Below are positions 7,591 through 42,996 of a stretch of 42,996 nt of DNA, piece by piece; positions within the stretch are counted from its first letter, which is position 1; every line of letters begins with the position of its first letter. The translations under genes were made by a program, and so were the position numbers. This stretch comes from a virus. The stretch is from IMG/VR virus record IMGVR_UViG_3300045257_000093, positions 1 to 42,996 of that record. One strand, given 5' to 3'. Below the pieces are notes generated by a model. That model made no database searches and was not told where the DNA came from. It was given only the letters and a program-made list of their open reading frames with translations.

Positions 7591-8886
7591 ATGCACATCA
7601 AAACCCGTATCGCGGCCCTGATCGGCCTCGCGCTGAACCCGCACGTCGTCAAGCACACCGGCCACCGTTTCGGCCAGAAGGACGGCGTTGACCCGGAGGC
7701 TCTTAAAGCCGCGCTGGCCACCGCGCTGGCCACTCGCGACGCCGAGATCCAGGGCCTCATCAAGAAGTCCAACGAAGAGATCGAGAAGGTCGGCAAGGCG
7801 TCCGCTGAGACCGTCGAAGCGCTCCAGAAGGCTGCGGCCGAGGGCGTCAAGCAGCAGGAGCGCCTGAACGAGATCGAGCAGGAGATCGTCGAGCTGAAGG
7901 CCAAGGGCCTGCGTAGCGAGCCCGCGTTCAAGTCGGCCGGCGAGCAGCTGTGCGACTCCGAGGACTTCAAGAGCTTCGCGTCGAAGGGCAAGGGCACGGC
8001 GATCCTGCAGCTCAAGGCCGTCACCAGCGTGACCAGCGCCACCACCGGCACCGGCGCCGCGGGCGGGATGATCCAGCCGCAGTGGCTCCCTGGCGTTGTC
8101 GGCCCGGCGCTGCGTCAGTTCACCATCCGCGACCTCATCATGCCGGGACGTACCAATTCCAACGTAGTGCGCTACGTTCGAGAGTCGGGCTATCAGAACA
8201 TGGCCGCGATGGTGGCCGAGGGTGCGCTGAAGCCGCAGTCCGACTTGGCGTTCGCGCAGGTCGACACCGCGGTGAAGACCCTGGCTCACTGGTTGAAGGC
8301 GTCCAAGCAGATCCTCGCTGACGTACCGATGCTGTCGAGCTACATCGACACCCGCCTGACCTACGGCCTCAAGTACGTCGAGGAAGCTGAGCTTCTGTCG
8401 GGCGACGGCACCGGGGAGCATCTGCTGGGCCTCATCCCGCAGGCGACTGCGTTCAATGACGCGCTGCGCAAGGCCGGCGACACGCAGATCGACACGCTGC
8501 GCAAGGCGATCCTGCAGGTTCGTATCGCCGAGTATCGCGCCAGCGGTATCGTGCTGAACCCGATCGACTGGGCGAACATCGAGCTGACCAAGACCACGAC
8601 CGGCGAGTATGTCTGGGTCAACGTCGGCACGGGCGCCAGCCCGCAGCTGTGGCGCTTGCCCATCGTGGACACGAACGCGATCCCGGCCGGTCACTTCCTG
8701 GTCGGCGCGTTCAACATGGCCGCGCAGGTGTTCGATCGTGAGGATGCCAACGTCCAGGTCTCGACCGAGGACGGCGACAACTTCGTGAAGAACATGGTGA
8801 CGATTCGTGCCGAGGAGCGCATTGCTCTGGTCGTGTACCGGCCGGAATCGTTCGTCTACGGCCCGTTCGCCGCTCCCACGACCTGA
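7591..8886 (+). CDS. Major capsid protein (HK97 fold) with scaffold-like N-terminus
   Basis: A 431-aa capsid protein. Residues about 30-110 form a long charged coiled coil (rich in EIEKV, ETVEALQK and EQEIVELK-type heptads) corresponding to the HK97 delta domain that acts as scaffold and is removed by the protease. The mature shell domain follows, with the E-loop/P-domain hallmarks (IRDLIMPGRTNSN, YRASGIVLNPIDWANI, and GAFNMAAQVFDRE near the C-terminus). I chose ATG 7591 with GAGGACAC upstream. The leader and the first ~30 residues resemble those of the tail tube gene at 12921 (see findings). No chaperonin-type or decoration gene is recognised next to it. Confidence 0.95.
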   Translation: MHIKTRIAALIGLALNPHVVKHTGHRFGQKDGVDPEALKAALATALATRDAEIQGLIKKSNEEIEKVGKASAETVEALQKAAAEGVKQQERLNEIEQEIVELKAKGLRSEPAFKSAGEQLCDSEDFKSFASKGKGTAILQLKAVTSVTSATTGTGAAGGMIQPQWLPGVVGPALRQFTIRDLIMPGRTNSNVVRYVRESGYQNMAAMVAEGALKPQSDLAFAQVDTAVKTLAHWLKASKQILADVPMLSSYIDTRLTYGLKYVEEAELLSGDGTGEHLLGLIPQATAFNDALRKAGDTQIDTLRKAILQVRIAEYRASGIVLNPIDWANIELTKTTTGEYVWVNVGTGASPQLWRLPIVDTNAIPAGHFLVGAFNMAAQVFDREDANVQVSTEDGDNFVKNMVTIRAEERIALVVYRPESFVYGPFAAPTT

Positions 8887-14153: not shown

Positions 14154-17100
14154 AACCCGGATGGCCCTTAACTCCACTGCCTTCCGGCAGGGGATGATTC
14201 AAGCGGCCAGCCAGGCCAACGACTCGCTCGGTTCGATCAGCAAGAAAGCCGGCGAGACAGCCAGTGTGCTGCTCTCGCTGAAGCGCGCTGCAGATACCTT
14301 CGGTACGTTCTATCTCGTCAAAGAGGGCATCGGCTCGCTGCTCGAAGCACAGAAGCAGCTGCAGGCTATTCACTACACGCTCATTGCTGCGACTGGCTCC
14401 TCGACGCAAGCGTCGGACGCTTTCAAATTCGTGGCTGACGAGTCGCAACGCATGGGCCTGGTGCTGCCCGAGGCGGCCTCTGGTTTCGCCAACCTCTCCG
14501 CGTCGGCTACCGCTGCCGGCGTCACGCTGACCGATCAGAAAAAGCTGTTCGACGCCTACTCGAAGTCGGCCACGTCGCTACATCTGGATACCACTCAGTC
14601 GAATCGTGCGTTGCTCGCATTGGAGCAAATGTTCGCCAAGGGCAAGATCCAGGCGCAGGAGTTGCGCTTGCAGCTCGGCCAGGCCATCCCGGGTGCCGCG
14701 CAGCGATTCCAGAACGCCGTCATGGAGATGACGAAGGGGACGGATCTTGCCGGTAAGTCCTTCGATCAGCTCCTCTCAGCCGGTGAGCTTACGACCTCGA
14801 AGTTCCTGCCGGCTCTGGTCACTGCGCTGGAAATGTCGGGCCGAGGCTGGGAGGAGGCGAGCAAGGGTCTCAATTCTAATTTGAATCGCGTCCGAACCGC
14901 ATGGTTCAACCTCAAGACCGAAGTCAGCAGCGGGCTGTTCAACGAGGCGGCGACGGCCGGCGCGGGCTTGCTGGCCGATAACCTTGGCCGGGTCGCCAGT
15001 GCGGTCAGCCTGATCGGCGCGGGCGGCTTGGCGCGGGTGCTGGGCGGGCAGATTGACTCGGGGGCGAGCAAGGTTACCCGGCTCGCCCAAGAAGCCCAAG
15101 GTTCCCGCATGGCGGCAGCGGCGGAAGCCACCTATGCTGCGAAGGTTGCGGCTACTGCGGAAGCCGAAGCGGCGGCGGCGGCGGTCCAGAAAGGAAGGAT
15201 CGCCACGCGTCAAGCCGACGGCGCTGCGTTCATCGCAGAGAATCGTCAGATCCTCTACAATGCCGAGCTGCAAGTCGAGTCGGCGGCGGCGCTCAAGGCG
15301 CGCCAAGTTGCCCTCGGCGGAGCGGCGCAGTCGGCGATGGTCCTTGAGGTTGCCGAGGAACGGCTGGGCCTCGCGCTCGCCGAGCAGGCGGTTGCTCAAG
15401 CTAGGGTCAACGCCGAGATGGCTCTTGCCACCCCGCTGTCGGACAAGTACACCGCGGCGCAGGCCCGGCTCGTCGTTGCGGAGAATGCCGTCGTTGCGGC
15501 CCAGGCACGCGTGGTCGAGACCCGCGCCGCCGAAGCGGCTATTGGCGGGCTCACGGCAACGGCCGGCCGGGCCGCGAAGTCCATCGGTACCTTTGCGCTC
15601 TCGCTCGTTGGCGGCTGGACGGGCGCAGCCGTGCTGGCAATTGGCGCCGTTGGCTATGCGATTTACAAGGTCAACGCGGACTGGGACGACTACCTCAAGC
15701 ACGCTGACGAGGTAGCCAAGTCCAACGTCGAGGTCACCCAGACGCTCCGGGACTTGGCGCTCGCGTACCAAGACGTGAACACCCGGCCCGATGCAGCGGC
15801 GCTGAGCAGCGGCTTAGACGCGGCAGCAACGGCAGCAACCAAGGCACGCCAAGAACTCGACGACCTCATCGCGAAGCGCGCTGAGCTTGAGGACCAGCAG
15901 CAGCGTATGACAGCCCGCGGGGGCCCAAGCCTGCTGCTCGATCCGAAGATTGGCGAGCTGGACGCGAAGATTGCGCATGCACGCAGTACGCTCGACGACC
16001 TCACCAGCTCAGCCGGCAAGGCGCAGCAGGAGCTTGCAGCGGAGCTTGCACCAGCCGTGCTCAATAGCGTCAACCCGGCACTCGACTTGCTCGCCACACG
16101 CGTCTACGGAGCACGAGACGCCTTTGCGGCGCTGCAGGGTCTCGCGTCGATCCCGTCATCCCTCGGCGACCTCGTGGCTCAAGCGACCGACGCGAGCAAG
16201 GCGTTCAAGGCGTACACCGCGGAAGCCACGGCTGCTGGCGACGCTTCGCTGAAGTCGATCCAGAAGCACGGAAAGTCGAACGAGGGGCTGGCGCAAGTTC
16301 GGCTAGACCTGCTGAAAAACTCAACAGCGTGGAAGAGTATGACTGCTGACCAGCGGTCAGCAGCGGTAGCGCAAGAGCAAACGGAAGCGGCGCTCGGCCG
16401 AGGGGTCGATGCGCTCAGCAACAAGACCAAGACGCACAAGGATAAGGTCGACCAAGCGGCCGAGGCGTACAAGAACCTCAGCAACGCGCAGCAGGGGCAG
16501 ATCGCGACGCTCAAGGGCCAGCTCGCCGGCACCGACGGGTACGGCGAAGCCCAGAAGACGTTGAACACGATGCTGGCCGGCGGTAGCGCCGAGTTCCGCA
16601 AGATGACCGCGGCTCACCAAGCCGAAGTGATCGCCACGCAGCGCCAGATCGTCGCGGATACGCAGGCGGTCAGCCTGATGAACCTCAAGATCGACAGCGC
16701 GCGCAAGCTGGCGGACATGGACCGAGAGCTTGCGAGGGAGCAAGAGGACCGAGCGCGCGCAAGTGCTTCCCAAGTCGAGGGCGTAGGGCACGGCAGCCAG
16801 TGGAACGCCGAGCGCCAAGCGATCGACGCGGTAACGGCGGCGACGCGGCAGAAGATGGACGCCGAGGGCGCTGCGTACCGGCAGGCCATCGACCTCGCGG
16901 ACAAGCAGAACAAGACGGCCGCCGAGCGAGCAGTGATCGACCAGGATCACTTGGCGATGCAGGGCAAGATCACCGCGGCCGGGGCGTTGGGCGCCAAGCA
17001 AACCCAAGACGACTTCGACGCGATGCGCGCGGCGCAGGGTAGCTGGGAGAACGGGATCAAGGCGGGCATCGAGGACTTCCAAACGCAGCAGCAGAACAAC

Positions 17101-17673
17101 GCGGCGGCGGGCAAGAAGATGGTCGACGATCTGACCGGCGGCTTCACCAACGCCTTCACCGCGTTTGCCAGCGGCGCTGAGAATGCCAAGACCGCCTTCG
17201 GTAGCTGGATCGACGACATGTACAAGCAAGCCCTCGCATTCGTCGCGAACAAGGCGATCCAGGCGCTCTTCGACTCGTTCTCGCAGACGGGCGGGGGCTC
17301 GAAGTCGTCGACGCCGGGTAGCTCCGCGGGCGGCTGGGCAAGCCTCGCGGGTAACGTCATGAATGCGTTCGGCTTCTCCTCAGGCCCCGGCACGATCGGG
17401 GCGGGCCTGGCGGGCGGCGGCTCTGCGCATGCGTGGGGCGCGTACCCGGTCGCCGAGAACGGCCCTGAGATTCTCAAGGTGGGCCATCGGAGTATCTTGA
17501 TGATGGGCGACCAGTCCGGTACCGTTGTGCCGAACAATCAGATCGGCCGGGCCGCAGGGAACACCACCGTGACCAACATTTACGTCCAGCCGACCACGAC
17601 GCGCCGCACCGCGGATCAGATCGCGACGGCCAATGCGCGCACGCAGCGTATCGCCACGTCGAGGAATGGCTGA
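14131..17673 (+). CDS. Tape measure protein (lambda family)
   Basis: At 1180 aa this is the largest gene. It is the molecular ruler of the tail, filling the tube during assembly and ejected ahead of the DNA. The N-terminal ~260 residues match tape measure domains (ASGFANLSASATAAGVTL; LEQMFAKGKIQAQELRLQLG, a highly conserved stretch). Then come long Ala/Glu-rich helices, one hydrophobic segment (about residues 485-512, VGGWTGAAVLAIGAVGYAIYK) and a C-terminal lambda-type domain (WENGIKAGIEDFQ, AVAENGPEIL-like). By the usual rule of about 0.15 nm per residue the tail would be near 175 nm. Start ATG 14131 lies 23 nt inside the GT frame. Confidence 0.95.
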   Translation: MATVATLETRMALNSTAFRQGMIQAASQANDSLGSISKKAGETASVLLSLKRAADTFGTFYLVKEGIGSLLEAQKQLQAIHYTLIAATGSSTQASDAFKFVADESQRMGLVLPEAASGFANLSASATAAGVTLTDQKKLFDAYSKSATSLHLDTTQSNRALLALEQMFAKGKIQAQELRLQLGQAIPGAAQRFQNAVMEMTKGTDLAGKSFDQLLSAGELTTSKFLPALVTALEMSGRGWEEASKGLNSNLNRVRTAWFNLKTEVSSGLFNEAATAGAGLLADNLGRVASAVSLIGAGGLARVLGGQIDSGASKVTRLAQEAQGSRMAAAAEATYAAKVAATAEAEAAAAAVQKGRIATRQADGAAFIAENRQILYNAELQVESAAALKARQVALGGAAQSAMVLEVAEERLGLALAEQAVAQARVNAEMALATPLSDKYTAAQARLVVAENAVVAAQARVVETRAAEAAIGGLTATAGRAAKSIGTFALSLVGGWTGAAVLAIGAVGYAIYKVNADWDDYLKHADEVAKSNVEVTQTLRDLALAYQDVNTRPDAAALSSGLDAAATAATKARQELDDLIAKRAELEDQQQRMTARGGPSLLLDPKIGELDAKIAHARSTLDDLTSSAGKAQQELAAELAPAVLNSVNPALDLLATRVYGARDAFAALQGLASIPSSLGDLVAQATDASKAFKAYTAEATAAGDASLKSIQKHGKSNEGLAQVRLDLLKNSTAWKSMTADQRSAAVAQEQTEAALGRGVDALSNKTKTHKDKVDQAAEAYKNLSNAQQGQIATLKGQLAGTDGYGEAQKTLNTMLAGGSAEFRKMTAAHQAEVIATQRQIVADTQAVSLMNLKIDSARKLADMDRELAREQEDRARASASQVEGVGHGSQWNAERQAIDAVTAATRQKMDAEGAAYRQAIDLADKQNKTAAERAVIDQDHLAMQGKITAAGALGAKQTQDDFDAMRAAQGSWENGIKAGIEDFQTQQQNNAAAGKKMVDDLTGGFTNAFTAFASGAENAKTAFGSWIDDMYKQALAFVANKAIQALFDSFSQTGGGSKSSTPGSSAGGWASLAGNVMNAFGFSSGPGTIGAGLAGGGSAHAWGAYPVAENGPEILKVGHRSILMMGDQSGTVVPNNQIGRAAGNTTVTNIYVQPTTTRRTADQIATANARTQRIATSRNG

Positions 17674-22900: not shown

Positions 22901-24531
22901 CGGTGACTATCGAAGACCGATTCAAATTGCGTCGAGGTACGGCGGCGAACCTGACGGCCGTCAATGAAACGCCTTTGGACGGAGAAATCTGCTATGAGAA
23001 AGATACCGGCAAGTTCAAGGTCGGCGATGGGCTGACGCCCTATCTTTCGCTCCCTTACTTCTCGGTACTCGACACGGTGCTTCGCGTCCGGCTGGCAACC
23101 GCTGCGGCGCTGCCTGCGAGCACGTACGCCAACGGAACCGCTGGCGTCGGGGCAACGATTACCATCACCGCGACGGGAACTCTGAGCGTCGACGGCGTAG
23201 TTGCCGCGCTCGGCGACTTCCTTTTGGTCACCGATGAGGCGACGTCTGCACGCAATGGCGTTTACAAAGTGACGACGGCCGGCGCGGTTGGCGTCGCCGC
23301 CGTGCTCATGCGGGCAATTCGCGCGGACGCCTCTGACGAGGTAGCCGGTCGCCTAGTAACGGTGGGGCCCGAGGGGACGGCGAATGCTAATACGGTTTGG
23401 CAATGCACGAGCGCTGCGTCGCCCACTATCGGTACGACGGCGATTACTTTCTCTAGGGTGGGGTCGGGCGGTATAGGGGGCTCGCAGTTCGCTGTCGCGG
23501 GGGGAACTTCCGACGCCATTACGGCAGCTTTCGTCTCCGCGCCGATACTAGCTGACGGCCTGGAGCTACGCATCCGCGCTACGGCAGCTAACGCTACGAC
23601 AACTCCAACTTTCAATCCGAACGGGCTTGGGGCCCTCATCATCTATAAGCTCGGCGGCGGCACCTTGCTCGTCGAGGACATCTCGGGCCCGGGCCATGAA
23701 CTTATTTTACGTTACCGCGCAAGTCCGGCTCGATACGAGTTGCTAAACCCTCGCAATCGCGTCACTCTCACCCCGGGCGCGAACGTCACGGTGGACAACT
23801 CTAACCCATACGCCCCCGTGGTAGCCTCAATTGCGGCGGGTATTGGGCTGAAGGGGCGGCTCGCGGCCTATGCAAATCTTCCGAGTTCAGGCAACTCGTC
23901 TGGAGACGCCTACGTTCTCGACTCGGATAGCATGATCTATGTCTGGAATGGGAGCACGTGGCCAAGCTCGGGCGCCGGTATAAATTCAGGCGGGGGCCTC
24001 GTCCGATTAAGTAAACAGGTAGTTGCGACCGCAACGGCTACCATTAGCTTCAGTTCTATCCCCGCAGGCTATTCCTCGTTGAAAATCGTCCTTACGGGTC
24101 GAGACACGAACTCGGCATCCGGAGAGCTTGCTACTTTCCTCCAGATCAATGGCGACGGTACCGCGGCTAACTACACGCTTACTCAGGGTATTCAAGGCAT
24201 CTCATCAACTACGGGAGCTGGGGCGGGTGCAGCTTTGGTTATAGGCTCTACAACGAGTGGTGGGTGCGTCGGCTCCATTCCTGGCACGAGTGGCTTAGCG
24301 ACAGCGGTAGGATCCTCCGAGATATTGATTCCCAATTACGCCGGAACGGCATTTCATAAAATCGTCAGAACGTCTTACAGCGATTTCTACGGCAGTAGCA
24401 CGCCCTCGCGAGATACGGCGGAGGTCTCATTTTTATGGAAGTCAACTGCGGCTATCGATAGCTTGGTCTTGGTCGCCGGGGGGACTTCCTTTGCGGTAGG
24501 CACTACGGCCGTGCTATACGCGATGTTGTAG
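22897..24531 (+). CDS. Tail fibre / receptor-binding protein
   Basis: A 544-aa fibre. The N-terminal ~45 residues (FKLRRGTAANLTAVNETPL, DGEICYEKDTGKFKVGDG) are the trimerising N-domain known from the major tropism determinant and hyaluronate-lyase-like fibres. The middle has repeated Gly/Thr-rich beta strands and a VTPGANVTVDNS-like linker, and the last ~180 residues (ISFSSIPAGYSSLKIVLTGR to the end) form a compact beta domain often found at fibre tips. It starts with ATG 22897 in an ATGA overlap with the hub. Its stop TAG (24529-24531) abuts the convergent polymerase stop. Confidence 0.87.
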   Translation: MTVTIEDRFKLRRGTAANLTAVNETPLDGEICYEKDTGKFKVGDGLTPYLSLPYFSVLDTVLRVRLATAAALPASTYANGTAGVGATITITATGTLSVDGVVAALGDFLLVTDEATSARNGVYKVTTAGAVGVAAVLMRAIRADASDEVAGRLVTVGPEGTANANTVWQCTSAASPTIGTTAITFSRVGSGGIGGSQFAVAGGTSDAITAAFVSAPILADGLELRIRATAANATTTPTFNPNGLGALIIYKLGGGTLLVEDISGPGHELILRYRASPARYELLNPRNRVTLTPGANVTVDNSNPYAPVVASIAAGIGLKGRLAAYANLPSSGNSSGDAYVLDSDSMIYVWNGSTWPSSGAGINSGGGLVRLSKQVVATATATISFSSIPAGYSSLKIVLTGRDTNSASGELATFLQINGDGTAANYTLTQGIQGISSTTGAGAGAALVIGSTTSGGCVGSIPGTSGLATAVGSSEILIPNYAGTAFHKIVRTSYSDFYGSSTPSRDTAEVSFLWKSTAAIDSLVLVAGGTSFAVGTTAVLYAML

Positions 24532-26034
24532 TCACTTCCGATACCGTCGCCCCCGCCAGCCGCCCTTGGCTTTGATTGGCCAATCGGCGGCCCAGGGCGG
24601 CATGGCGTTCATCTCGGCCTCGAACGCCTCGATCGACCCGAAACCCTTGGGCACCTCGGCGGCGTTCTCGTCGTAGACGTGCAGCACAACGGGATAGCCG
24701 GCGGCTGCGAGCCGGTGCTGGCCGTGGCGCAGGATGCGGTTGGCCGTCGCTTGGCAGGCATTCTCCAGCAGCTTGCCGCTGTACGTGGTCATCACGCACC
24801 AGCCATAGGCGCCCATCTTGGGGTTCGTGTTGTACCCCTCGTAACTGATCTGCAAGCCGCGCCAGTCGTCTTTGCCGGGCTGCAAGCGCGGCCGATGGTA
24901 GGGAATATAGCTGCCGTCTGGCAGGAACATGTAGAGCACGTCGTCATGCACGTACATCGTGAGCCCGGAGAACGTGCCGTCCAACCGCGTCACCGGGAAC
25001 TGCGTCTCGGGGTTCTGGACCGCCAGCACCGTCATCCCTTCGAGCCCATGCATGTGTGGCACGCCTTTCCACGGTGGCACGCCGTCGGCGCGCGCACGGC
25101 ACCACTCCCATTCCTCGCCCGCGTTGACCCGGCCGCCGACGGCTACCGCTGCTTGGTGCCACGCCGCCGTTGACTGCGGGCAACTCTGGCCGCCGCCGAG
25201 GAACACGATGTTTGGGCTCGCCGCGCGCCAGCGCAGGATCAGGTCGCGCGCCTCGGCTTCGTCGCCCTCGAAGCCCATTGCCTTGAGCGCCCCGATCCAG
25301 CCGAGGAAACCCAGCGCCAGCTCCGTTACCTTGCCTTTCTTGCGCAGCGGATGCTTCTGGCCCGTAGGCTCGGCCGGCTTCCAGGTCCACCATTCGGGCT
25401 GCGCCAACTCGGTGTCGGTGTAGCCCTCGTAGCGATGGAAGTCGTTGACGTCCAGTTTGAAAGTGGCGGCGGCCGACGCCTCGTAAATCTTGCCGTGCGC
25501 ACGGAACACGTCGATGCGCCACTGCTCGCCGGCCAGCATCGCGTTCACAACGGCCTCGATCGCCGAGTAGTCGCTGCAGATGAACTCGTGGTCCTCGTCG
25601 GTGCAGAGCAGCGAGCGCAGGCTACCGCCCATCACCGCCAGCGCATCGCCCCAGATGCTCTCGACGAAATCCAAGTCACGCGTGGCTATCGCCGCGAGCC
25701 CGTCCTCGGCCGCCGCGGCGTTCCATTCCTCGGCCTTGCTGAGCGGCCCGCGTAGCTGGAAGCACCACGGGCAGGCCACGCGCTCGGCGGGGTGCCAGCG
25801 GTGACACTCGGCGCACTGGCGCACCTCGGGGCCTGAGTTCGGGAAGTTCGTCGGCTGCGGCCCGCTACCCGTCGGCCGGCCGGTCCTCGCGCCGTCCACG
25901 GTAAATAGGTCGTGCACCCGGTTGGCGGCGGTCATCTGGCCGCGCAACGCGTAGACTTTCTTGACGCTGGCGCTCCCGACGGCTTGACGGATCTCCAAGG
26001 CGCGGAGGCAGGCGAGCATGTTGTCGCGGGTCAT
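24532..26034 (-). CDS. DNA polymerase family A, polymerase (C-terminal) subunit of a split gene
   Basis: A 500-aa catalytic part starts near the thumb/palm boundary (LEIRQAVGSASVKKVYAL). It has motif A ICSDYSAIE (D155, E160), a fingers helix KGKVTELALGFLGW (from K235), and motif C HVYDE (D455, E456). Motif C differs from the canonical VHDE: the His is Tyr. A four-Cys zinc ribbon (CAEC C74/C77, CPWC C88/C91) is set just after the TNFPNSGP region. The exonuclease is missing and is encoded separately upstream (26279-27229). Start ATG 26034 shares ATGA with the 83-aa gene between the two halves. Two subunits presumably reassemble into one replicative enzyme. Confidence 0.92.
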   Translation of the reverse strand: MTRDNMLACLRALEIRQAVGSASVKKVYALRGQMTAANRVHDLFTVDGARTGRPTGSGPQPTNFPNSGPEVRQCAECHRWHPAERVACPWCFQLRGPLSKAEEWNAAAAEDGLAAIATRDLDFVESIWGDALAVMGGSLRSLLCTDEDHEFICSDYSAIEAVVNAMLAGEQWRIDVFRAHGKIYEASAAATFKLDVNDFHRYEGYTDTELAQPEWWTWKPAEPTGQKHPLRKKGKVTELALGFLGWIGALKAMGFEGDEAEARDLILRWRAASPNIVFLGGGQSCPQSTAAWHQAAVAVGGRVNAGEEWEWCRARADGVPPWKGVPHMHGLEGMTVLAVQNPETQFPVTRLDGTFSGLTMYVHDDVLYMFLPDGSYIPYHRPRLQPGKDDWRGLQISYEGYNTNPKMGAYGWCVMTTYSGKLLENACQATANRILRHGQHRLAAAGYPVVLHVYDENAAEVPKGFGSIEAFEAEMNAMPPWAADWPIKAKGGWRGRRYRK

Positions 26035-26282
26035 TTCAGGAACCGCGGCAGGGGGCAGTAGTACTCGGGCGCACCATCGGCCTGCCAGCTGCCCTCGTTG
26101 AACCACACGCACTGGCCTTTCTTGTAGCTCCAACGAACTTTATCCGGCCCCAAGAACTTGTTGTTTCCCGAGGCGCGAAACGACCATACTTTCTCGCCGG
26201 GCCGAGCAAATCGTGAGTGGTACACAACGTACTCGCCGGGAGGCGGCGGGTTCTTCTCGTCCCACTTCTGCCAGTCATTCAT
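26031..26282 (-). CDS. 83-aa protein encoded between the two DNA polymerase halves
   Basis: The protein has many aromatic and charged residues (KWDEKNPPPPGEYVVYHSRF, KVWSFRASGNNKF, GQCVWFNEGSWQ). PPPPGEYVVYH.. and a late CVWFNEG pattern suggest a small beta barrel, of the kind found in short phage DUF proteins. It is coupled by ATGA overlaps on both sides: its ATG 26282 overlaps the stop of the exonuclease part and its stop overlaps the ATG of the polymerase part. I recognise no nuclease, intein or splicing motif. It could be a bridging subunit or a passenger (inference). Confidence 0.8.
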   Translation of the reverse strand: MNDWQKWDEKNPPPPGEYVVYHSRFARPGEKVWSFRASGNNKFLGPDKVRWSYKKGQCVWFNEGSWQADGAPEYYCPLPRFLK

Positions 26283-27229
26283 CCTAGTTTCTCCTTGAGT
26301 TCTTTGATGACGCCTTCGACGCTCTCCTGATCCAGCGAGTCAACGTAGCACCCTTTGCCGGCGAGCCACCCGACGAGCTTCTGCACCTCGCTGGCTTTCT
26401 TCACGCAGCCACCGGTGAGGATGGCCAGCTCGGCGTTGTAGCGTTCGAGCGCCTGCTCCAGCACCACGATGCAATTCTCGACGCCCGCGCGGTCCACCGG
26501 AATGCCGCGCTTGTTGATCGCCAGGTCGAGCAGCCAGTAGGCGCGGCGGTCGGCGGGCATGTCGGGCGTCGCGGCGCTCACTTCGTCTTCGGCCAGTACG
26601 TCGCGGGCGTTGTAGGCGTAGAGCCGCGGGCCGTCGGTCGGATCTTCCTCGGGCCGGATGCGCTTGCGCGGGTCTTTCTTCGTCGGCTTGCGCGGCACGC
26701 TGAAGCGATCGAGCAGGCGCTTACCCTCGGCGTCCTTCTGGTGCTCGATGCCCAACACCTCACCGACGTCGGCCAAGCTCGGCGGCAGCGACCACGCGCG
26801 CGCTTTGCCCATCGAGCAGTAGAGTTGCGTCGGGCGGATCGGCGGGAAGCCGTAGCGCGGCACCGCGACGTACTCCCAGACCCATAGCTCGAACTTGGCG
26901 CCGTGCGCCTCTATCTCGCCGCCGGCAGCAATGTGGGCACAGAAGTCCGCGGGCAACGGTTGGCCGGGCAGCCAGAGCCGATCGCCGAGCCCATCCTTCA
27001 GGTCGTAGACCATCGACAGGATCTCGGTCGTCGGGTGCTGCGCGTAGACGGCCGCCCCCACCGCCGGCAACCCGCCGCGGCCCTTCGCGTCCGTCGCGGT
27101 CTTGAGCCATTTGCCGTCGGCTTCCGACCACTCGAACCCCGCCTCGCTGTATGACTCCAGGTCGAACGATGCACGCACCGTTGAATGGCCGAGCCCGACG
27201 CGGAGCTTTGTGCCGGCGAGGTGGGTCAT
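26279..27229 (-). CDS. DNA polymerase family A, 3'-5' exonuclease (N-terminal) subunit of a split gene
   Basis: A 316-aa protein has the DEDD exonuclease fold: Exo I SFDLES (D23, E25), Exo II-like EAHGAKFEL (an unusual Gly and Glu in place of the common Asn/Asp), and Exo III YNARD. After about residue 210 it continues into the first part of the polymerase domain (YWLLDLAINKRGIPVDR, CVKKASEVQKLVGWL, and LDQESVEGVIKEL), where single-chain relatives go on into the polymerase. It ends at KEKLG and the chain resumes in the gene at 26034. Start ATG 27229 overlaps the previous stop. Confidence 0.9.
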   Translation of the reverse strand: MTHLAGTKLRVGLGHSTVRASFDLESYSEAGFEWSEADGKWLKTATDAKGRGGLPAVGAAVYAQHPTTEILSMVYDLKDGLGDRLWLPGQPLPADFCAHIAAGGEIEAHGAKFELWVWEYVAVPRYGFPPIRPTQLYCSMGKARAWSLPPSLADVGEVLGIEHQKDAEGKRLLDRFSVPRKPTKKDPRKRIRPEEDPTDGPRLYAYNARDVLAEDEVSAATPDMPADRRAYWLLDLAINKRGIPVDRAGVENCIVVLEQALERYNAELAILTGGCVKKASEVQKLVGWLAGKGCYVDSLDQESVEGVIKELKEKLG

Positions 27230-36739: not shown

Positions 36740-36882
36740 GCCGAAGGCTCCGCAAGCTATGGCTATGGGCGACTTGGAGGCTGCGCGGACGTCCGCTCAA
36801 ATGTTGCGGTTGCGGCGTCTACTCCGGGTACTGCAATCCGCCTGAGTGCTGCGGCAACGGCGTTCGAGATTATCAGGGGTAA
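36736..36882 (+). CDS. 48-aa cysteine-rich (zinc) protein
   Basis: Starts at GTG 36736 (GTGA with the TetR gene). It has a basic Trp-containing N-terminus (RRLRKLWLWATWRLRGRP) and a compact six-Cys core (KCCGCGVYSGYCNPPECC) expected to bind zinc. It ends 2 nt before the primase gene. Function unknown; nucleic-acid binding is plausible. Confidence 0.7.
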   Translation: MSRRLRKLWLWATWRLRGRPLKCCGCGVYSGYCNPPECCGNGVRDYQG

Positions 36883-36884
36883 CC

Positions 36885-39257
36885 ATGCAAGTCCTGCCGC
36901 CCGCGCTGGCGCCTCTCGCCGCGTACAACCAGTTCATCCTCTACCGTTTGGTGCCCGACGGCGTCAAGACGCTCAAGCAGCCCATCGATCCACGCACCCT
37001 TCGCGTTGCGGGCGCTCACGATTCGGCGGCATGGGTGCCCTTCGAGGAGGCCGCCGCATTGCTCCCGGCCCTCGGCACGAATCACGGCATCGGCTTCGTA
37101 TTCACCGAGAACGATCCGTTCTGGTTCCTGGACCTGGACGAAGCGTGGGACGGCACGGCGTGGAGCCCCGCGGCGCAGCAAGCGTGCGATGAGCTGCAAG
37201 GCTGCGCGGTGGAGATCTCGCAGTCGGGCCGCGGCCTCCACATCTTCGGGACGGGCTTCGTGCCGCCGCATGGCTGCGACAATAAGGTCATCCATGCGCA
37301 GTTCTTTACCGAGCGCCGCTTCGTTGCGCTGACCGGCACGAGTGTCGTCGGCGACGCCGCACACTGCGCGCCCAACATCGGCGCCTACGTGCAGCGTCAC
37401 TTCCCGGTGCCGACCGGCGGCCAGGGCGGTATCGACGCGGGCTGGTGGAGCGACGAGCCCGTTCCGCAGTGGCGCGGGCCAACGGATGACGACCAGCTCA
37501 TCCAGCGCGCGCTCAAGTCCCGCTCGGGCGCGTCGGTGTTCGGCAGCAAAGCGAGCTTCGAGGACCTTTGGGATGCCAACGCGGACAAGCTGGCCGTGTC
37601 GCACCCGCCGGATCGCGAGGCCCGAGGCGCCTACAACGCCTCGACGGCGGACGCGGCGCTCGCGCAGCACTTGTGCTTCTGGACGGGCAACGACGCGGCA
37701 CGTATCGAGCGCCTGATGCGCCAGAGCGCGTTGCTGCGCGACAAGTGGGACGACCGCGACGACTACCTCCCGCGCACGATCCGCAAGGCGTGCTCGATGC
37801 AAGATGAGTTCCTGGCCGATGCGCCGCCGAGCGCCAGCCCGTTCGCCGCCGAGGTCAAGGCCGCGCCGGTCATCACCGGGGCCGTCAAGATCACCGATAG
37901 CACGTTCCTGGCCTGCGAGAATCAAGTGGATTTCTTCGCCGGCTGCGTCTACGTGATCGACGCGGACAAGTTCAAGCTGCCGACGGGCATGCTGGTGGAC
38001 TCCACGCGTTTCAACCGGGTCTTCGGCGGGCGTACCTTCGTCATGGATCACGCCAACGAGCGCACGTCACGCAAGGCCAGCGAGGCGTTCACCGAGTCGC
38101 AGGCGTATCGCTTCCCCCGCGTCGACACGACATGCTTCCGGCCGCTGCTGGAGCCCGGCGCGATCATCGTGGAGCACGGCAAGTCGCTGGTCAATACGTG
38201 GGTGCCGATCGACGTATCGCGGCATGCCGGCGACGCCTCGCGCTTCTGGACGCACTTGGCGAAGATGCTGCCCGACGAGGAGGATCAGCGCATCCTTGCG
38301 TACTACCTCGCGGCGTGCGTGCAGCGGCAGGGGCTCAAGTTCCAATGGGCGCCGCTGGTGCAAGGCACGACGGGAAACGGAAAAAGCATGCTTTCCCAAT
38401 TCGTGCGCAAGGCGATCGGTCGCGAGTATTGCCACACGGCGCGGGCGAAGAATATCGACAACGACTTCAACGCCTGGATGGCCGGCAACACGTTCGTCTC
38501 AGTCGATGAGATTTACATTCCCGACAAGCGGCTCAACATCCTTGAGACGCTGAAAGAGATGATCACCAGCGACGAGCAAGAGGTCACGCTGAAAGGCGTG
38601 GACTCGGGCACGAAAGAGATCTGCTGCAACTTCTGGTTCGGCACGAATCACCGCGACGGCATCCGCAAGAATCGCCACGAGCGCCGCATCGCACCGTTCT
38701 ACTGCGCGCAGCAGCAGCCGTCTGACCTGATCCGCGACGGGCTGACCGAGGATTACTTCCGCGACTTCGTGGACTGGCTCAAAGGACAACACGCCTATGC
38801 GGGCCAGCCGCAGGGCTACGCCGTCATTGCGGACATGCTATGGACCGTCGAGATCCCGCCGGCCTACGACCCCAGCCTCTCCCCTCGCGCGCCGCGCACG
38901 ACCAGCACGGAAGCCTCCGTGGTCGCCAGCCGCGGGCCGATCGAGCAGGAGATCGTCGAGGCCATCGACCAAGATGAACTCGGCTTCAAGGGCGGCTGGG
39001 TATCAAGCGTGATGCTCAAGCGGCTTTTGGCCAATGGCTCGCACAAGATCGGCTTGAGTATGCAAGGCGAGTTGGTCGCGGGCCTGGGCTACGTGCTGCA
39101 CCCGGCGCTCGGCGCGTCAGGCCGCGTGAACAATGCGGTGATGCCCGACGCCAGCAAACCGAAACTCTACGTGCGGGAGGATGACGCCGCGTTGCTGGCG
39201 CTGGCCACCGCGGCTGAAGTCGCCCGGGCTTACTCGGCGGCACAACTGGGACATTGA
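36885..39257 (+). CDS. Primase-helicase (Prim-Pol plus D5/P4-type helicase)
   Basis: A 790-aa bifunctional replication protein. The N-terminal domain has FLDLDEAWD (D83, D85) and SGRGLHIFG (H119), the archaeo-eukaryotic primase catalytic pattern. A helical linker follows, then an SF3/D5-like ATPase with Walker A GTTGNGKS (494-501) and Walker B FVSVDEIY (D541/E542), plus the family motif WFGTNHRDGIRKNRHERRI. A C-terminal winged-helix-like region follows. P4-type enzymes bind iterated origin repeats and start unwinding; an array of such repeats lies 190 nt downstream. ATG 36885 has AGGGG upstream. Confidence 0.92.
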   Translation: MQVLPPALAPLAAYNQFILYRLVPDGVKTLKQPIDPRTLRVAGAHDSAAWVPFEEAAALLPALGTNHGIGFVFTENDPFWFLDLDEAWDGTAWSPAAQQACDELQGCAVEISQSGRGLHIFGTGFVPPHGCDNKVIHAQFFTERRFVALTGTSVVGDAAHCAPNIGAYVQRHFPVPTGGQGGIDAGWWSDEPVPQWRGPTDDDQLIQRALKSRSGASVFGSKASFEDLWDANADKLAVSHPPDREARGAYNASTADAALAQHLCFWTGNDAARIERLMRQSALLRDKWDDRDDYLPRTIRKACSMQDEFLADAPPSASPFAAEVKAAPVITGAVKITDSTFLACENQVDFFAGCVYVIDADKFKLPTGMLVDSTRFNRVFGGRTFVMDHANERTSRKASEAFTESQAYRFPRVDTTCFRPLLEPGAIIVEHGKSLVNTWVPIDVSRHAGDASRFWTHLAKMLPDEEDQRILAYYLAACVQRQGLKFQWAPLVQGTTGNGKSMLSQFVRKAIGREYCHTARAKNIDNDFNAWMAGNTFVSVDEIYIPDKRLNILETLKEMITSDEQEVTLKGVDSGTKEICCNFWFGTNHRDGIRKNRHERRIAPFYCAQQQPSDLIRDGLTEDYFRDFVDWLKGQHAYAGQPQGYAVIADMLWTVEIPPAYDPSLSPRAPRTTSTEASVVASRGPIEQEIVEAIDQDELGFKGGWVSSVMLKRLLANGSHKIGLSMQGELVAGLGYVLHPALGASGRVNNAVMPDASKPKLYVREDDAALLALATAAEVARAYSAAQLGH

Positions 39258-39258
39258 G

Positions 39259-39456
39259 ATGAGCATCAAGGCTCGCATACTCGGCGTGCTCGAAGAGGGC
39301 GCGTCGCCAGCGCGCGGCGTGGCCGACGAGCTGGGCTTGGACTACCGCCGGGTCAATGCGTACCTGCGCGACCTATGGGTGCGGGGATACGTCACGCGGC
39401 TGTTGTTCCATCGCGCGCACGCTCGGCCCGTCTGGATGTACTCAGTGCTCGACTGA
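39259..39456 (+). CDS. Small winged-helix DNA-binding protein
   Basis: A 65-aa protein from ATG 39259 (1 nt after the primase stop). KARILGVLEEGASPARGVA followed by DELGLDYRRVNAYLRDLWVRGYV is a compact MarR/ArsR-like wing-helix (helix-turn-helix plus the GYV hairpin). It is coded right at the repeat array: the first repeat contains its stop codon. It may be a regulator or an origin-binding accessory protein. Confidence 0.78.
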   Translation: MSIKARILGVLEEGASPARGVADELGLDYRRVNAYLRDLWVRGYVTRLLFHRAHARPVWMYSVLD

Positions 39457-39724
39457 GTTTTGGTCGATGGGGATTTGGTCAAGCACCGATTGCCGAGGCT
39501 CGACTGAGTTTTGGTCGATCACATATTGATCGCGATGCGGTAGAGCGCCCAGATCCAGCACGCGCACGCCACGATGACGCTAAGTAACTCGGGGACCTTG
39601 CGGTTCATAGTCGATCGCCTTTTGGTCGATGGGGATTTGGTCTCGCTGAGTTTTGGTCGATCGGGGTTTGGTCGGCGCTCAGATGGCGGTGCTCGACTGA
39701 GATTTGGTCGATCGGGGTTTGGTC
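39447..39724. repeat. Array of five ~34-bp direct repeats (candidate iterons / replication origin)
   Basis: Five copies of roughly GCTCGACTGAGTTTTGGTCGA plus T-S-GGG-R-TTTGGTC: A 39447-39480, B 39498-39520 (second half degenerate), C 39609-39642, D 39642-39673, E 39691-39724. Each full unit holds two TTTGGTC steps 15 nt apart, nine in all. The array lies between the converging primase unit and the right-end minus operon. No uniform spacers, so not CRISPR. Confidence 0.88.
39519..39608 (-). CDS. 29-aa hydrophobic peptide between repeat units
   Basis: A short frame from ATG 39608 (AAGG upstream) has a charged start (MNRKVPEL) and a hydrophobic body (LSVIVACACWIWALYRIAI), a single transmembrane helix. 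It fills the gap between repeats B and C. Support is limited to the ribosome site and the membrane profile, so it may be chance. Confidence 0.35.
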   Translation of the reverse strand: MNRKVPELLSVIVACACWIWALYRIAINM

Positions 39725-40125
39725 AAGCCCTTGGCGGCGATGGCGGCGCGCGACTTCGCCTGGCTGGCCGTGGCGCACTGCCGGCAGTGGTCACGCTTGC
39801 CGCTGGCGCTGCGCAACGCCTCCGCGCGGATGGTGCCGCACGCACGGCAGAAAAAGTGCCCGGCCGGTAGCGGCGGGAATGGCCGGCGCTTGCCGTCAAA
39901 GTCACGCTTGCGGAATTGCATCGGGTTACCTCGCGTTCCTGGGTAGCGTTGCGCGAGCCGCGACAATGGAGCGCGTGCGCCTGTTATCACGACGTCGCAC
40001 GGGTCAAGTCTCCAGCCGTCCACACCGACAAAGCCACTTCCGTAGAGCATGGCGTCTAAGCGCACGCGCTCCATTGTCGCGGCTCGCGCAACGAACCATA
40101 GCAGGCGCCACTCGGCGAGCGTCAT
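39679..40125 (-). CDS. Zinc-finger protein ending in the repeat array
   Basis: A 148-aa frame from ATG 40125 (ATGA with the previous gene). The start of the C-terminal domain, at Met107 of a longer frame (39921, GAGG upstream), is an alternative start giving 80 aa. The C-terminal part is a zinc ribbon (FFCRACGTIRAEALR, CRQCATA) and the last residues are encoded by repeat E. The N-terminal half carries both arms of the perfect 34-bp inverted repeat 39947-40093, which suggests that the upstream half has been rearranged. Function unknown. Confidence 0.6.
   Translation of the reverse strand: MTLAEWRLLWFVARAATMERVRLDAMLYGSGFVGVDGWRLDPCDVVITGARAPLSRLAQRYPGTRGNPMQFRKRDFDGKRRPFPPLPAGHFFCRACGTIRAEALRSASGKRDHCRQCATASQAKSRAAIAAKGLTKPRSTKSQSSTAI
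39947..40093. repeat. Perfect 34-bp inverted repeat with 79-bp spacer
   Basis: Left arm 39947-39980 (starts CGTTGCGCGAGCCGCGACAA) is the exact reverse complement of the right arm 40060-40093. The 79-bp centre (39981-40059) is not symmetric. Both arms lie in the coding frame of the minus-strand gene 39679-40125. Perfect identity of this length implies recent origin or a functional constraint. Confidence 0.93.
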
Positions 40126-42407: not shown

Positions 42408-42436
42408 AGCGGCGGTTCCTCATGGCGTTGTGGGGA

Positions 42437-42456
42437 TACTAACGGTTGCGTTAGTA
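42437..42456. other. Stem-loop between right-end genes
   Basis: TACTAACG (42437-42444) pairs exactly with CGTTAGTA (42449-42456) around GTTG, between the genes ending at 42477 and starting at 42407 on the minus strand. It could be a regulatory RNA hairpin or an operator. Confidence 0.55.
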
Positions 42457-42476
42457 GCATGCAAGTAGCTATGCAA

Positions 42477-42737
42477 TCAGCGTGCCAAGCGGCGGCCGAT
42501 GCGTGACGCGGCGAAGATATGGCGCGGGCAGTACAGCACAACGCGTTCGCGGTGATTCGCGCCATAGCGCACGGCGCTAGTGCGTACCTGGAGATAGTCG
42601 CGTTCGGCGGCCAACTGTTCCATCGCGTGCAGGGCAAGCGTGTCGGTAACGTCTGATTCGCGCAACACGCGATAGGCATAGGCAAAGCCATTGCCGCGGA
42701 TCAGGGCGCGTGCGGTGCGGTAGTCGGTGCGGTTCAT
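42477..42737 (-). CDS. First gene of the right-end minus operon, unknown function
   Basis: An 86-aa protein from ATG 42737, 23 nt after a promoter-like element. DYRTARALIRGNGFAYAYRV suggests a helical start; it ends basic (CPRHIFAASRIGRRLAR), consistent with nucleic-acid binding. First in line for expression from the right-end promoter, so probably an early protein. Confidence 0.68.
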   Translation of the reverse strand: MNRTDYRTARALIRGNGFAYAYRVLRESDVTDTLALHAMEQLAAERDYLQVRTSAVRYGANHRERVVLYCPRHIFAASRIGRRLAR

Positions 42738-42855: not shown

Positions 42856-42898
42856 TTGTGGGGCGAAGGGTGACGCGTGGCGGCCACTGCTTGCCCCG

Positions 42899-42996
42899 GT
42901 GCTGAGCGTGCCCTGGTGCTGAGCGTGCCCTGGTGCTGAGCGTGCCCTGGTGCTGAGCGTGCCCTGGTGCTGAGCGTGCCCTGGTGCTGAGCGTGC
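42899..42996. repeat. 17-bp tandem repeat at the window end
   Basis: GTGCTGAGCGTGCCCTG occurs five times without error plus a 13-nt partial copy that stops at the end of the window. No gene covers it. It could mark a genome end or a collapsed repeat where assembly stopped. Confidence 0.93.

Follow-up and report, generated by a model that had tools for sequence, protein, structure and literature searches.

A direct-repeat array of TTTGGTC sites behind an NrS-1-type primase–helicase gene as a candidate phage replication origin

The window analysed is the whole 42996-nucleotide (43-kb) stretch of the viral record IMGVR_UViG_3300045257_000093, in which a gene for a primase–polymerase–helicase is followed by a small gene for a winged-helix protein and then by an array of direct repeats (Table 1). 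On its left the array overlaps the final codons of the winged-helix gene, and on its right it extends into the C-terminal end of the minus-strand ORF that ends at 39679; it therefore lies between converging genes. These coordinates agree with the first-pass annotation, made from the sequence alone, which had placed the repeats behind the two genes and in a convergent gap. The true start of the primase gene is likely to be a later codon, at 36873.

Table 1. Features of the window discussed in the text
Feature	Position	Strand	Remarks
NrS-1-type primase–polymerase–helicase gene, ~803 aa	36846..39257	+	PF22763, PF19263, phrog_1829 and NrS-1 structure matches
Helix-bundle domain (HBD)	37641..37811	+	Pfam match, residues 266–322; R249, K251 and Y261 of NrSPol conserved
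DUF5906/VapE-like helicase domain (SF3-like ATPase)	38361..38687	+	Pfam match, residues 506–614
65-aa winged-helix protein (TrmB/HTH_24-like, below curated cut-offs)	39259..39456	+	Homologues in L005, L006, L007 and L103 only
TTTGGTC direct-repeat array, candidate replication origin	39449..39728	+	Five units; place conserved in relatives
Unit A	39449..39480	+	TTTGGTC at 39459 and 39474
Unit B	39500..39531	+	TTTGGTC at 39510; second step decayed
Unit C	39611..39642	+	TTTGGTC at 39621 and 39636
Unit D, abutting unit C	39643..39673	+	TTTGGTC at 39652 and 39667
Unit E	39693..39724	+	TTTGGTC at 39703 and 39718
17-bp perfect tandem array, TGCCCTGGTGCTGAGCG ×6.2, unrelated to the TTTGGTC array	42892..42996		At the end of the contig; a rival origin or another kind of cis-site

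The array contains nine exact copies of TTTGGTC, all on the plus strand, and only one further exact copy is found in the rest of the window. When the 23-mer TTTTGGTCGATSGGGRTTTGGTC was used as a probe with up to three mismatches, four matches were obtained in the window, all within the array, and none in 100 dinucleotide shuffles. The array is real, the chance expectation for such copies being none. Its five units are in register, with start-to-start distances of 51, 111, 31 and 51. The count of nine steps and the direct adjacency of units C and D are as first described, and the initial picture of five two-step repeats of ~34 bp needs amending in two respects: unit B retains one intact step, its second reading ATTGATC instead of TTTGGTC, and the full unit, derived from comparison with relatives, is GGCTCGAC-N5-TTTGGTC plus a spacer, i.e. 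longer than 34 bp. Units B and C are separated by a gap of ~80 bp, in which we noted a tiny minus-strand ORF (39519–39608, ~29 codons) with one hydrophobic stretch; 16-mers of this insert were found in none of the other loci compared.

A search beside homologous primase genes, the check proposed with the original description, revealed TTTGG arrays in the corresponding position in eight relatives, namely L005, L006, L007 and L103 (86, 81, 76 and 76% primase identity to the window respectively), L008 (60%) and L028, L029 and L053 (about 51–53%), of which L103 is a contig from a Sideroxydans MAG. The sites in these relatives lie on the same strand as the primase gene and spacings of 7, 15, 22 and 36–37 recur across the arrays. 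The unit period is 37 in L006, L007 and L103, 44 in L008, and 51 in both L005 and the window; since neither 37 nor 44 nt is divisible by three, the repeat is not coding, and a protein repeat in the window was rejected on this ground. The fullest unit across the relatives is GGCTCGAY-N5-TTTGGTC and the most constant portion across lineages is TTTGG, some sites in L028 and L029 having different flanks with TTTGG and the 37-nt step retained. With zero mismatches allowed, GGCTCGAYNNNNNTTTGG was found within these arrays alone in the seven records scanned. In addition, the GGGCTCGAC of the last unit in L028 and L029 has an inverted partner, GTCGAGCCC, ~55 bp downstream (approximately 7683–7770 and 8104–8190 respectively), forming a possible hairpin or inverted site.

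Beyond this group the array was not detected. L030, which has ~51% primase identity and stands beside the array group in the tree, has no TTTGGT cluster, and neither does any of seven more distant sequenced phages with related primases, JD001, MSW-3, B2, SppYZU01, Scuro, LAPP1 and Psp6; TTTGG clusters were likewise absent from more distant family members, whose primases are about 51% identical or less. The array-bearing members group together in a tree of 36 primases, in which the exact node has negligible support. A DNA similarity search of phages and plasmids with the array gave no matches, and a scan of viral contigs with the array consensus found multiple copies in the known relatives only, single matches in other contigs being set down to chance. 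Two other sets of repeats were rejected: the GTTGGCA array of MSW-3, ~750 bp downstream, falls within an annotated gene and has spacings in multiples of 15 nt, and was judged to be coding, and the repeats that follow the primase gene in L033, L039, L010 and L011 also appear to be coding.

The neighbouring enzyme had at first been taken for a P4-type primase–helicase. The alpha protein of phage P4 is a primase–helicase working at iterated origin repeats, and the window resembles it in having such an enzyme at iterated repeats; unlike alpha, the window protein gives no match to any P4-alpha-specific family and, judged by its sequence, is an NrS-1-type PrimPol with an HBD and an SF3-like domain. 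It matches PF22763 (NrS-1 HBD) at 6e-20, PF19263 (DUF5906) at 2e-15 and phrog_1829 (DNA primase) at 3e-113, and the HBD and DUF5906 are both present in 36/36 family members scanned. The NrS-1 PrimPol structures 7rr4/6a9w match it with E about 1e-22 and are, with one weaker DNA primase, its only solved relatives found by sequence. The NrS-1 enzyme (NrSPol) and the window primase share 22% identity overall; residues Asp78, Asp80 and His115 of NrSPol, which we take to be the catalytic AEP motif residues (DxD and H), align with D, D and H of the window protein, whose Walker A motif is GTTGNGKS. Also conserved in the alignment are S108, S110, R249, K251 and Y261 of NrSPol, the last three being identical and invariant across 16 aligned sequences. 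In the SPS serine loop, which replaces the zinc finger in the NrS-1 type, both serines are kept and P109 is replaced by Q; Y146 is replaced by F. Mutants of NrSPol show the importance of S108, S110, R249, K251 and Y261 for primase activity, and the HBD is the template-recognising domain of that polymerase (PMC8718748).

The window phage also encodes a family A DNA polymerase, and its PrimPol may therefore serve mainly as a primase–helicase. This polymerase gene (24535–27229, minus strand) looks split into ORFs 26282–27229 and 24535–26133, the latter matching with a long internal insertion.

NrSPol recognizes the template sequence 5'-TTTGGTTA-3' through its HBD and begins synthesis at the first base 5' of the site, and the authors of that work suggest that an origin-specific start is directed by this site (PMC8718748); the NrS-1 structural paper states that the recognition sites may be the origin (PMC7102993). 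The array core, TTTGGT plus C, matches the NrS-1 site at 6/8 bases. Given this partial match, and as NrSPol also primes at GTG(A/G), with higher efficiency than at TTTGGTTA (PMC8718748), specificity may differ in the window phage. As the NrS-1 word was brought into the comparison once the array was known, the fit of TTTGGT to it is post hoc. As a check, every k-mer of the 1-kb stretch following the primase stop codon was ranked over the nine records, blind to the NrS-1 word, and the top k-mers were TTTGG (55 seen compared with 3.6 expected), TTTGGT among 6-mers (45 compared with 1.0) and TTTGGTC among 7-mers (38 compared with 0.5); as the nine records share descent, these counts gauge the constancy of the core and not nine independent events. 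The chance of a random strand-collapsed hexamer lying within the NrS-1 word is P about 0.0014.

In the genome of Nitratiruptor phage NrS-1 itself (L023), the sole exact TTTGGTTA is found 147 bp behind the primase gene, at 17198, and lies on the opposite (minus) strand; two copies of the recognition word have been described (PMC7102993), whereas our exact-word search gives one. The ~400-bp stretch behind the primase gene is dense in GGTTACACTTT repeats in both orientations, and TTTGGTTA forms where these repeats meet. The interval 17052–17456, annotated as a hypothetical gene, holds 11 copies of GTTACACT, with none elsewhere in the 37-kb genome, and is possibly the replication origin of NrS-1. 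No description of this stretch was found in the open literature covered, to which the original polymerase paper (Zhu et al. 2017) did not belong. The window and NrS-1 thus have in common a protein family combining AEP, NrS-1-type HBD and C-terminal AAA+/SF3 helicase (PMC8718748, PMC7102993), a site within a repeat-packed stretch right behind the primase gene and the core TTTGGT. They differ in that NrS-1 has one exact copy amid repeats in both orientations and no family A polymerase is listed there, whereas the window has nine TTTGGTC sites on one strand and encodes such a polymerase. Elsewhere in the family, TTTGGTTA occurs at 27106 in JD001, where it overlaps a start codon and was judged to be due to chance. 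In Psp6 (L022), a few GTTACC-type repeats around the primase stop and within the gap that follows (22988–23203) recall the GGTTAC of NrS-1; the word is common elsewhere in the Psp6 genome and these repeats were rejected as a counterpart of the array.

On the evidence of sequence comparison, we favour, with moderate confidence, the interpretation that the array is the origin region of the adjacent PrimPol–helicase and that TTTGGT is its template recognition or start word. The initial suggestion of an origin-like array recognized by a primase–helicase is thereby retained in its essentials, as place, core and strand are conserved in nine records and the core matches the NrSPol site; the assignment to the P4 type is not. 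In the proposed mechanism, the hexameric helicase part would assemble on the array and expose single-stranded DNA, after which the HBD, by analogy with NrSPol and TTTGGTTA, would read TTTGGT(C) of the plus strand as template. The AEP domain would then lay a DNA primer from just 5' of the site, leftward over the replication genes, with consecutive sites providing repeated start chances on one strand, and the phage family A DNA polymerase, the gene for which is present, would extend it.

An origin located behind a replication gene is known for SaPI and pRN1 and has been proposed for SCCmec and phage BIP-1 (PMC7581432, PMC4234260). In SaPI, the iterons are located behind rep, and in SCCmec the priming consensus partly matches direct repeats of the putative origin (PMC7581432). 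Direct repeats directly downstream of a replication gene or operon, as in the rep origins of SaPI and the putative CCPol-MP/Cch2 origin of SCCmec, are seen in all nine of our records; unlike the window, the SCCmec and SaPI systems have separate helicase and primase proteins, an unrelated repeat and another primase family. The pRN1 origin is located behind orf904, and both there and in BIP-1 the origin region lies right behind a PrimPol–helicase gene (PMC4234260), as in the window; in those systems, however, the signal is a long stem–loop and iterons are not seen as the origin, whereas the window has direct repeats without unusual folding.

The array might instead be an origin whose repeats are bound as duplex iterons, either by the helicase or by a DNA-binding C-terminal portion of the same protein; the resemblance to the NrS-1 word would then be coincidental. 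In SaPI and SCCmec, Rep and Cch2 respectively use their C-terminal domains to bind duplex direct repeats (PMC7581432), and the conserved unit flanks, with GGCTCGAC five bases ahead of TTTGG, are longer than a priming word requires. Nevertheless, it is TTTGG that is most constant across lineages, with flanks that vary in L028 and L029, and a profile search of the C-terminal region of the primase gave no credible match to a DNA-binding domain; we regard this alternative as rather unlikely.

Several hallmarks of an origin were sought at the array. The skew change anticipated in the first-pass annotation was not borne out, as GC skew has no turning point at 39.5 kb and the detrended skew reaches its extremes near 28.6 kb and at the two contig ends. 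The GC content of the array is 57%, its most AT-rich 60-mer being 52% AT, and neither an AT-rich unwinding element nor a DnaA box was found there. For a repeat-type origin, an AT-rich stretch or a skew turn would lend support but is not obligatory. The position of the skew extremes would suit an origin elsewhere, e.g. at the 17-bp array of perfect repeats at the contig end, leaving the TTTGGTC array for packaging, recombination or gene regulation. A homologous 17-bp array is found at both ends of contig G002, the record of L006 (1–130 and about 42420–42516), indicating a circular map broken within it. However, in the stretches searched the 17-bp array occurs in the window and one relative only, compared with nine records for the TTTGG array, and it is not adjacent to a replication gene, and we consider an origin elsewhere improbable.

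It is very unlikely that the array is a non-functional minisatellite or a transcription-termination or RNA feature between converging operons. Slippage does generate tandem repeats, and the copies within a phage are homogenized, but core and spacings are kept, while flanks diverge, at about 51–86% primase identity. The convergent gap is a suitable location for a termination or RNA element; against this, terminator matches around the array are at chance level, an RNA family search gave no match and the single-stranded DNA fold is ordinary (z −1.15, with 28/200 shuffles folding equally well), which equally gives no support to a large stem–loop origin of the pRN1/BIP-1 type. Least probable of all is the alternative first offered, that the repeats are an operator cluster for the winged-helix protein: its gene is adjacent, with TrmB/HTH_24-like similarity, and operators can be direct repeats, but the array follows the gene and does not stand ahead of a promoter, a single promoter-like match having been detected in this region, upstream of the array and overlapping the winged-helix gene start, and a profile search found homologues in the L005, L006, L007 and L103 records and none in those of the array-bearing L008, L028, L029 and L053, some of which are possibly fragments.

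As origins behind replication genes were already known, what is new here is that the core of the repeat would be the word recognized by the PrimPol family whose gene lies alongside. Tentatively, and at less than even confidence, we suggest that in one branch of the NrS-1 type copies of the primase start word have multiplied on one strand to give a tandem array behind the gene, which would form a platform for primer-independent leading-strand synthesis, and that the NrS-1 stretch is an origin of the same kind. With a natural, place-conserved array of the recognition core and a counterpart in NrS-1, origin choice becomes directly testable with oligonucleotides and cloned fragments, and the array may provide a sequence handle for locating origins in hundreds of related phages.
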